Shown here: positions 25,248 to 32,775 of the stretch, piece by piece
Layout of the letters: every line of letters begins with the position of its first letter
How positions within the stretch are numbered: position 1 is the stretch's first letter
DNA from: Pyrinomonas methylaliphatogenes
GTDB taxonomy: Bacteria; Acidobacteriota; Blastocatellia; Pyrinomonadales; Pyrinomonadaceae
DNA: 64,000 nucleotides
Assembly (NCBI RefSeq): GCF_000820845.2
Contig: NZ_CBXV010000004.1
Location: forward strand, 532,649 to 596,648
Direction of reading: 5' to 3'
Translations under genes and position numbers: made by a program
Notes under the pieces: generated by a model
What the model was told of the DNA's origin: nothing
The model's database searches: none
Seen by the model: the letters and a program-made list of their open reading frames with translations, nothing else

Positions 25248-25557
25248 ATGACAAAACGAAAAAAGGACAAGAACACGACAAGCACCAACGGCGACACGGT
25301 GGGCTATGAACCTCGGCTTTATGGTGGACCGCACCCACCGCGAGCTGACCGACGAGGACATCCAGAAGATCGCCGACACCTACCACGCCTGGCGCGGGGA
25401 GAAGGAGGCGGGGGAGTACCGGGATGTCCCCGGTTTCTGCAAGAGCGCCACGTTGGAGGAGATCCGCAAGCACGGCTACGTGCTCACCCCGGGCCGCTAC
25501 ATCGGCGGTCCCGAGCAGGACAAGCACGACGCACTTTTCGAGTCCGAGATAGCGTGA
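25248..25557 (+). pseudogene. hsdM: hsdM (type I restriction methylase) reduced to its two ends by an internal deletion
   Basis: The ATG at 25248 begins a typical HsdM N-terminus ('MTKRKKDKNTTSTNGDTVGY'). About 20 codons in, the sequence switches frame to the very C-terminus of HsdM ('NLGFMVDRTHRELTDEDIQK', 'DVPGFCKSATLEEIRKHGYV', 'LTPGRYIGG'), ending at 25557. Roughly 400 codons, including all methylase motifs, are gone and the junction is out of frame. It marks the left edge of a former type I locus whose hsdR remnant lies 5.4 kb away. Confidence 0.75.
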
Positions 25558-25699
25558 GCCTGTCACAATGACACTACCGGCAACCCGAGAGGGGCCGATG
25601 TCTTTTGTTGCTCTTGCACGAGCCTCGACGGCGGGGCGCCGAAACTAGTATTACTTCGTTTACCATCAACTATCGCGGAAAAGGAGGCAAACTCTCGCC

Positions 25700-27499
25700 A
25701 TGACATCTAAACCGAAGTGGTATTTCGAACCTGTCGGACCGATGGGCGGCGCGACGGGGAATGCGTTCGCGAATGTCCTCCAGGCTGCCGGAATCGACCC
25801 CGAAGCAGAACTCGCCCGGGAGGCGATCCAGAATTCGTGCGACGCCGCGAAGGAGGGGCCGAGACGAGTGCGTGTGGTGTTCCGTATCGTAGCGCTCGAG
25901 GGAGACGCCAAACAGCGCTTCATCGAGGCTCTTTCGCTCGCGCAGGGGATCGGGAAACGCATGAACTATGTCAGCCTCGCGCGCGACAACTGTCTCGCCG
26001 AGCCTGAGCGCCCCCTCCATCTGCTCTTCGTAGAAGATTACGAGACCAAAGGGTTGTCCGGCGACCCCCACCAGCGGTGGTCGCACTTCCATCGACTCTT
26101 GTTGTCCGTCGGTGACAGCACTAAAGCGCTCGAGTCGAGAGCAACCGGTGGCTCCTACGGCTACGGTAAGTCCGCACTGAGCCTCAATTCGCGCCTGCGC
26201 ACGATCGTCGCCTACAGCGCATTCAGGCCCGATGAAACCGGCGCCACCGCCCGACTCATGGGCTGCGCGTATTTGGATGCTCACGAATTCAAAGGCAAGC
26301 AGTGGACGGGCCGGGGCTGGTTCGGGGTTCGGCGCGCCGGCCACGAGATTATCGTCGACCCACTCCGGGACGAGGAGGCGCACGCGTTCGCGGAACTGCT
26401 CGGGTTCCGCAGCCGCCGCAATGAAGAGCATGGAACTTCGATTCTCATCGTCGACTCTCACGCCCACGATCACCAGCGGATCCTCCGCGGGATAGAAGAG
26501 TGGTGGTGGCCCCGGCTTCTGGACCAAGAGCTCGAAGTGGTGGTGGAAGCTGAAGGCAAGGAATATTTTCCCCAGCCGAAGCAGCGTCAGGATCTCCTGC
26601 CGTTCATCGAGTGCTATTCGCTCGCTGTCGAGCGTGCGCAGCCAGCCGGGCCGCATCAAAAAAGCGACAGGTTCAATCGACTGCGGGGGCTTTCTCTCGG
26701 CGGTTACGGCTTGCAGGTTCTGCCTGCCGATCTGGCCGACGAGTTCCCGGAAGAGAAGCTCGGCCGTGTCGCGCTGATCCGCTCGCCCAAGATGGTGGTG
26801 GAGTACGCGCAGATGGGAAGGTCGACCCCCGCAGCGGTCGGCGTGTTCCTGGCTGACTCCGACATCGACGACATCCTGAAGCTGTCGGAACCACCGAATC
26901 ATGACCGCTGGGATCCGGAGTCGCGACGGCTCGAGGTCGCGAAGCCCGACGAGGACACTGCACGCGAAGTCGTGCGGCAGGTTCGAAAGCGCCTGAAGGA
27001 CCAGATGCGGAAGCTCCAGGCGCAGGCGAGCCCGCCGAGACCGAGGGAGGAGCGTCGGCTGCGCTTCCTGGAGCGAGAGCTCGGTGCTCTGTTCCGGCCG
27101 CCGATGCGGGGCGACGGCTGGGAAGGCGTTACGGACCCTGTGGAGATCCGCTTCCGCGAAGGGCCTGCTATTCGACCATGCAAATCCGACAGCATCGAAA
27201 CCTTCGCCACAGTGGCACTGAGGCTCCGGTCGGATGCAGAAGACGATTCGACCGAAGCCATCGTTCGAGTTCGTGTCCCGGTTCTCGAAGACGATCACGG
27301 TAGGGAAGGCGACCTTTTGCAGGTCACGATCGAATTCGAGAACGGCAATCCAGCTATCACCGGTCAGACCGAGTCTGAATTCCCCATTGAGCTTTCCAAG
27401 AGCGAGTGGCGCGTTTTTAGAGTGCGCAGCGCCCCTTACGACCATCGTTGGGCCACGAAGGTCGACGTCCAAGTCGAATCACAGGAGGGAGGATCGTAA
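25700..27499 (+). CDS. GHKL (MutL/MORC/Hsp90-fold) ATPase of a restriction-type operon
   Basis: 599 residues with AAGGAGG at 25681. ATP-site motifs: N box 'LAREAIQNSCDAA' (about 38-50), a G1-like 'LFVEDYETKGLSGD' and G2 'GGSYGYGKSAL'. This combination is typical of MORC-like ATPases found in bacterial restriction-modification operons rather than of true MutL. The C-terminal half has no recognised nuclease. As first gene of the operon with a cytosine methylase and a Vsr nuclease, it is the likely ATP-driven clamp or translocation switch. Its stop overlaps the next ATG (TAATG). Confidence 0.75.
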   Translation: MTSKPKWYFEPVGPMGGATGNAFANVLQAAGIDPEAELAREAIQNSCDAAKEGPRRVRVVFRIVALEGDAKQRFIEALSLAQGIGKRMNYVSLARDNCLAEPERPLHLLFVEDYETKGLSGDPHQRWSHFHRLLLSVGDSTKALESRATGGSYGYGKSALSLNSRLRTIVAYSAFRPDETGATARLMGCAYLDAHEFKGKQWTGRGWFGVRRAGHEIIVDPLRDEEAHAFAELLGFRSRRNEEHGTSILIVDSHAHDHQRILRGIEEWWWPRLLDQELEVVVEAEGKEYFPQPKQRQDLLPFIECYSLAVERAQPAGPHQKSDRFNRLRGLSLGGYGLQVLPADLADEFPEEKLGRVALIRSPKMVVEYAQMGRSTPAAVGVFLADSDIDDILKLSEPPNHDRWDPESRRLEVAKPDEDTAREVVRQVRKRLKDQMRKLQAQASPPRPREERRLRFLERELGALFRPPMRGDGWEGVTDPVEIRFREGPAIRPCKSDSIETFATVALRLRSDAEDDSTEAIVRVRVPVLEDDHGREGDLLQVTIEFENGNPAITGQTESEFPIELSKSEWRVFRVRSAPYDHRWATKVDVQVESQEGGS

Positions 27500-30915: not shown

Positions 30916-30982
30916 GGGAGACGCTGGGTCCCCTCGTGATTGTTCCGGTCTAGCACGGGTATTCGAGAAACCTCGCGAACAC

Positions 30983-32775
30983 AAACTTGCGCGGAACCAC
31001 ATGCGCGATGCCCTCCCCAACGCTTCCTTCATCGGGTTCACCGGCACGCCGATCGAAAAGGCCGACGCCAACACCCGCGCGGTCTTCGGCGACTACATCT
31101 CGATCTACGACATCCAGCGCGCGGTGGAGGATGGCGCCACGGTGCCGATCTACTACGAAAGCCGGCTGGCCAAGCTCGCGCTCGACGAATCCGAGCGACC
31201 CCGGATCGACCCGGACTTCGAGGAGGTCACCGAGGGCGAGGAGGTCGAGCGCAAGGAGCGGCTCAAGAGCAAGTGGGCCCAGCTCGAGGCCATCGTCGGC
31301 GCCGAGAAACGCTTGCGCCTCATCGCCCAAGACATCGTCGAACACTTCGAGTGGTGTGCATGAGCCGGCGCATCTGCGTCGAGCTCTACCGCGAGATCGT
31401 CAAGCTGCGGCCGCAGTGGGCCAGCGAGGATGACGACCAAGGTGAGATCAAGATCGTGATGACCGGCTCGGCCTCCGATCCGCCCGACTGGCAGCCGCAC
31501 ATCCGCAACAAACCGCGACGCGAGGCGCTGGCGAAGCGCTTCCGCGACCCGAACGATCCGCTGAAACTGGTCATCGTGCGCGATATGTGGCTCACCGGCT
31601 TCGATTGCCCCAGCCTGCATACCCTCTACCTCGACAAACCCATGCGCGGCCACGGGCTCATGCAGGCTATCGCGCGGGTAAACCGGGTGTTCCGCGACAA
31701 GCCGGGCGGCCTGGTGGTGGATTACCTGGGCTTGGCGCACGAACTCAAGGCGGCGCTGGCGACCTACACCGAGAGCGGTGGTACCGGACAGACCACCCTC
31801 GAGCAGGAACGTGCGGTGGCGCTGATGCAGGAGAAGTACGAGATCTGCTGCGGCATCCTGCACGGGTTCGATTGGTCGGATTGGGCGAGCGGCGACGCGC
31901 AAGCGCGCATTGGCCTGTTGCCCGCCGCGCAGGAGCAGGTGTTGTCGCGCGTGAACGGCAAGGAGCGGTTTCTGCAGGCGGTGCGCGACCTGTCGAAGGC
32001 CTTTGCGCTGGCGGTGCCGCATGAGAAGGCCCTGGAGATCCGCGACGACGTGGCCTTCTTTCAGGCCGTGGCCGCAGCGCTCACCAAGACCCTTGATGTA
32101 GGGGCGCACGGCCGTGCGCCCCTACTGGACCACGCCGTCCGCCAGATCATCGCGCGCGCGGTGGCGCCGGAAGGTGTGCTGGACATCTTCGCGGCGGCCG
32201 GCCTGAAGAAACCCGACCTCTCGATCCTCTCCGAGGAGTTCCTGGCCGAGGTGCGCGGCCTGCCGCAGCGGAACCTGGCGGTCGAGCTGCTCCAGAAGCT
32301 GCTGAAGGGGGAGATCAGCACGCGTCGGAGGCAGAACGTGGTGCAAGCCCGCTCCTTCGCCGAGATGCTGGAACAGACCCTCCGTCGCTACCAGAACCGC
32401 GCCATCGAAGCGGCGCAGGTGATTGAAGAACTCATCGCCCTGGCCCGCGACATGCGCCAGGCCAGCGCGCGCGGCGAGAAGCTCGGCCTCAGCGAAGAGG
32501 AGCTGGCGTTCTACGACGCGCTGGAGACCAACGACAGCGCGGTCAAGGTCCTGGGCGACGAGACGCTCCGGACCATCGCCCGCGAGTTGGTCGAGACGGT
32601 GCGGCGGAACGTCACCATTGACTGGACCCTGCGCGAGAACGTGCGGGCGCAGCTCCGGGTACTGGTAAAGCGCATCCTGCGCAAGTACGGCTACCCACCG
32701 GACAAGCAGGAGAAGGCGACCCAGACGGTGCTTGAGCAGGCGGCCTTGCTCTCTGTGGAGTGGGCGGCTGCGTGA
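30983..32775 (+). pseudogene. hsdR: hsdR (type I restriction translocase) remnant, 5'-truncated and with an internal deletion
   Basis: Begins mid-gene at 'LARNHMRDALPNASFIGFTG' (helicase motif III region). It continues to 'LRLIAQDIVEHFE' and then breaks: the next residues of a normal HsdR are missing (about a dozen codons), and reading resumes in another frame at 'VCMSRRICVELYREI' (about 31354). The second frame holds the later helicase motifs ('LTGFDCPSLHTLYLDKPM', 'LMQAIARVNRVF') and the C-terminal domain to a normal-looking end. The N-terminal nuclease domain and Walker motifs are absent. Non-functional. Confidence 0.85.
32098..32125. repeat. Perfect 28-nt palindrome embedded in the hsdR remnant
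   Basis: GTAGGGGCGCACGG followed immediately by its exact reverse complement. In the hsdR frame it adds 'GAHGRAPLL' between 'TKTLDV' and 'DHAVRQII'. It looks like a copy of a mobile REP-like palindromic repeat of the GTAGGGGC... kind. Confidence 0.8.

Follow-up and report, generated by a model that had tools for sequence, protein, structure and literature searches.

An intact GHKL ATPase and methylase gene block in a decayed type I restriction site of Pyrinomonas methylaliphatogenes, a candidate for defence by DNA clamping

Pyrinomonas methylaliphatogenes K22 is a thermophilic acidobacterium of hot soil with a published genome of 3,788,560 bp in 16 scaffolds (PMC4644332). We analysed a stretch of 64,000 nucleotides (positions 532649-596648 of contig C4, in an assembly of 3,788,560 bases and 16 contigs), hereafter the window. 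It contains a block of five closely spaced genes, all with intact reading frames, that encode a GHKL ATPase, a protein with a predicted beta sandwich, a DUF6339 protein, a C5-cytosine DNA methylase and a Vsr endonuclease (genes 1 to 5; Table 1). The first three are referred to as the trio and, together with the methylase, as the four genes. The four genes also occur together in many other bacteria, again lacking the helicase that is their usual partner.

A gene block between type I restriction remnants

An earlier note on this DNA had placed five intact genes between hsdM and hsdR remnants, and this proved correct. The order is an hsdM stub, hsdM residues 394-474, the five genes, hsdR residues 446-563 and, in another frame, hsdR residues 575-1047; hsdR residues 1-445 are absent. 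Locus L098, in a genome of the same class (G032), carries a whole type I operon encoding hsdM (521 residues), hsdS (431 residues, a label that rests on position and likeness), an AAA-type ATPase (530) and hsdR (1047). The hsdM remnant of the window matches PF02384 on 25306-25554 (E 6e-13) and is 68% identical to residues 394-474 of the L098 hsdM, while its stub matches, with 83% DNA identity, an hsdM relic at L099 in the same genome. L099 (C8:562000-576000) is the second type I relic of this genome, its hsdM and hsdR pieces being separated by a DUF3644 frame.

A comparable site was found in Limisphaera SKW233 (L003), where the order is hsdM pieces, hsdS pieces, hsdR residues 1-310, the block and hsdR residues 605-1047. 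The block is thus flanked on both sides by hsdR pieces and therefore lies inside hsdR there. Both layouts are compatible with a single old insertion within hsdR residues 310-446, after which different deletions occurred; independent insertion events may also account for them. Among 40 genomes searched, hsdR relatives were matched in 19 (the window's own included, many matches being short or weak) and the ATPase only in the window's own. Across 396 genomes of the phylum the ATPase was matched in 11 (own included; several matches are weak and partial and may be other GHKL proteins). Because the ATPase is rarer than hsdR relatives among the genomes searched, the block is the sporadic part of the site. 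Residence in type I operons was rejected as a general rule for the block, since it holds at 2 of the 79 loci surveyed below; L064 and L076 have weak type I-like matches at greater distance, further type I families lying outside the search.

Compared with locus L004, genes 1-4 have nonsynonymous change (pN) of 0.20-0.29 and synonymous change (pS) of 0.65-0.72. Synonymous change is near saturation, and therefore only the direction can be read, which is that of purifying selection. The pN of the hsdR remnant is also low (0.16-0.19), probably reflecting divergence that is mostly older than its decay; thus, the test does not separate the block from the relic.

Table 1. Features of the locus, in window positions
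Feature	Position	Strand	Details
hsdM remnant, dead type I methylase subunit	25248..25557	+	start stub ~25248-25305, then residues 394-474 and aberrant end
Gene 1, paraMORC2-type GHKL ATPase (PDC-M33A-like), 599 aa, intact motifs	25700..27499	+	PDC-M33A E 9.4e-32
Gene 2, 314 aa, predicted Ig/FN3-like beta sandwich and helical tail	27499..28443	+	start overlaps gene 1 stop (TAATG)
Gene 3, DUF6339 protein (PDC-M33C-like), mostly helical, 249 aa	28451..29200	+	PF19866 31.7 bits (cut-off 23.2); PDC-M33C E 1.3e-6; pLDDT 95.6
Gene 4, C5-cytosine DNA methylase, 425 aa	29197..30474	+	PF00145 E 1.4e-37
Gene 5, canonical Vsr mismatch endonuclease, 142 aa	30487..30915	+	TIGR00632 131.5 bits (cut-off 97.85)
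hsdR remnant, residues 446-563 and 575-1047 in two frames, residues 1-445 absent	30998..32775	+	tblastn with whole L098 hsdR; PF11867, TIGR00348

Recurrence of the block among relatives

The survey covered 79 loci, namely the 79 loci of a contig scan minus L050 plus the window. DUF6339 was present in 64 of the 67 loci with at least 3 kb of downstream sequence; the three lacking it (L003, L057 and L070) all have a broken ATPase gene. A frame of 190-370 amino acids directly follows the ATPase at 68 of 79 loci, and a C5 methylase lies somewhere in 52 of the 58 loci with at least 5 kb downstream. Vsr was found somewhere in 31 of the 47 loci with at least 4 kb upstream and 6 kb downstream. The 36 Vsr matches are scattered. 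On the same strand, 20 lie downstream and 5 upstream; on the opposite strand, 9 lie upstream, in divergent orientation, and 2 downstream. Across the 49 of 73 rows whose Vsr status is known, its presence has switched at least 12 times and its position at least 19 times. Of all genes in the block Vsr is co-inherited the least, and the methylase is co-inherited more strongly with the ATPase (r 0.86) than with Vsr (r 0.55).

Rearranged copies were also seen. In a Curvibacter metagenome-assembled genome (MAG), the start piece of the ATPase is directly joined to a tail piece of the methylase (L050:10001-11287), an internally deleted copy. Two decayed copies, one in the Limisphaera MAG and one in a proteobacterial MAG, have a gene for a Schlafen group 3 helicase of 614 aa behind the broken ATPase gene, where genes 2 and 3 would otherwise stand (L003:9445-11286 and L070:10349-12190). 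The two helicases are 76% identical and represent a second layer of nesting or replacement.

The trio proteins and known systems

In an alignment of 43 rows chosen from 120 listed homologues, ATPase residues E41, N45, D48, E112-D113, G150-G151, G154, G156-K157, G245-T246, E397 and H401 are invariant (43/43). E397 and H401 would form an ExxxH motif in the distal S5 region, as in paraMORC2. The structure predicted for gene 2 (pLDDT 91.4, pTM 0.68) has an Ig/FN3-like sandwich at about residues 16-157 and then a helical tail; that predicted for DUF6339 (pLDDT 95.6, pTM 0.90) is mostly helical and gave no convincing match in structure comparison. The best-matching rows for both models contain no nucleases. 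On these models, which are not decisive, the idea that either gene encodes a recognisable nuclease was rejected. Gene 4 has PPC at 163, ENV at 203 and QTRKR at 244, so that the PC, ENV and QxRxR motifs are all present. It is the only PF00145 match in the genome, as gene 5 is the only Vsr match.

The order of the trio is that of the PADLOC candidate PDC-M33 (A, B, C), where we take PDC to mean PADLOC defence candidate. The Bacteroides locus L071 matches all three models. The window ATPase matches A, most strongly over residues 35-252, and its DUF6339, third in order, matches C; however, gene 2, second in order, gave no match to model B, the ATPases of the window and L071 share ~27% identity where they match, and the branch to which the window belongs has in addition a methylase and, in many cases, Vsr. 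Operons of paraMORC2 resemble the block in their GHKL ATPase with ExxxH and in their methylase and Vsr neighbours (Iyer, Abhiman, Aravind 2008, PMC2292703). They differ in that the families published there are tied to superfamily II helicase and restriction endonuclease-fold genes, although a minority of MORC neighbourhoods without a helicase is mentioned, and the available text of that paper holds no description of genes 2 and 3. PF10593 had no match in the window's genome, the control matching in 1 of 14 genomes, and a search for PF14390 (DUF4420, MzaD) of MzaABCDE gave no match, nor did its control genomes.

Clamping, cutting and other readings

We consider it an even question whether the four recurring genes form an anti-virus system, a predicted function in which the methylase would mark the cell's own DNA and unmarked DNA would be clamped instead of cut. 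A fuller version is tentative and, taken whole, rather unlikely: immunity without nuclease or helicase, in which the MORC-type GHKL ATPase, guided by methylase marks and two adaptor proteins, would topologically trap and silence unmethylated invading DNA, as a prokaryotic counterpart of eukaryotic MORC silencing that here took the place of a cutting system. BREX likewise marks self by methylation and attacks without known cleavage, a likeness that depends on clamping being right; no BREX signature family, including PglZ, was found among the five proteins in a Pfam scan. It was proposed in 2008 that prokaryotic MORC relatives loop or reshape DNA within restriction operons, where most lie beside helicases and nucleases able to do the work (PMC2292703). 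The compact form of trio plus methylase, and genomes with no Vsr match, would permit a direct test of DNA entrapment.

Several observations weigh against clamping. In the other two branches of the family, helicase or nuclease genes accompany the trio, so that here too it may have a nuclease as partner, acting in trans. Some family members sit among housekeeping genes, which is compatible with a non-defence role too. Six of the 10 methylase-side genomes with a Vsr-less locus hold Vsr elsewhere, and two of the four without any match are MAGs of uncertain completeness. DUF6339 is split across two frames at the Vsr-less locus L045, and the L003 block is decayed, its ATPase match stopping at residue 530, genes 2 and 3 being absent and the methylase carrying a stop. 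Also, DUF6339, in which W96, R111 and R170 are conserved, may hide an enzyme fold or activity of an unfamiliar kind.

Conventional restriction, in which the trio would recognise unmethylated sites and the cut would be made by Vsr or by a nuclease acting in trans, is an unlikely alternative. MORC and paraMORC operons with nucleases and Vsr have been described (PMC2292703). Vsr follows the methylase in the window, L003-L007 (among them L005, a five-gene set from Massilia eurypsychrophila) and L011, and it is frequent in the survey (31 of 47 loci); however, it is the gene least tied to the block, and gene 5 retains the residues of a mismatch enzyme. Its alignment to the E. coli enzyme (1cw0, E 6.4e-30) runs through the catalytic and aromatic residues: D56, H69, F72, W73 and W92 fall on the places of the catalytic Asp and His and the intercalating aromatics, which we take to be D51, H64, F67, W68 and W86 of the E. 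coli protein. This points to a probable role in repair of deaminated methylcytosine. Furthermore, no Vsr was found in four of the 10 genomes mentioned above (the isolates of L014, which is Roseateles toxinivorans, and L019 and the MAGs of L022 and L039), in a genome-wide search that matched 4/4 Vsr-bearing control genomes. L019 has an MvaI/BcnI-type restriction gene and a methylase immediately upstream. At seven Vsr-less loci (L017, L031, L033, L039, L045, L047 and L048) no nuclease was recognised in the flanking frames, which are metabolic or unassigned, L045 also having an AAA and a glycosylase gene. These results caution against taking Vsr as the cutter in such operons.

It is distinctly unlikely that the trio is an adaptor for different restriction machines that served a type I enzyme in this genome and was stranded by its decay. 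Type I flanks are as rare as noted above, the block interrupts hsdR in L003 instead of lengthening the operon, and metabolic genes adjoin the four genes in several genomes. Less probable still is a repair unit with no part in defence, in which the GHKL ATPase would take the role of MutL and work with Vsr where the linked methylase has modified the DNA. How MutL, Vsr and methylation are connected in E. coli has been discussed (PMC2292703), and all three components are linked in the window; against this, the trio and methylase are kept without Vsr, several Bacteroidota trios have no methylase within reach, and a number of loci are situated among restriction-type genes. Finally, a housekeeping Dcm/Vsr pair beside an unrelated ATPase, which resembles E. 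coli in that a C5 methylase adjoins Vsr, was rejected because the methylase is co-inherited more with the ATPase than with Vsr. Taken together, the observation in the earlier note was partly confirmed and its interpretation partly supported.

Elsewhere in the window, a DUF433 and DUF5615 gene pair, presumably a toxin-antitoxin layout, lies shortly upstream of the block (23577-24247). The gene at 13644-21884 encodes a protein of 2746 aa that combines RHS repeats with PKD domains, and a 324-aa frame at 24189-25163, with no Pfam family assigned, resembles by eye a broken RHS tail. A 404-aa frame at 36237-37451, also without a Pfam family, ends in a near-exact tandem repeat.
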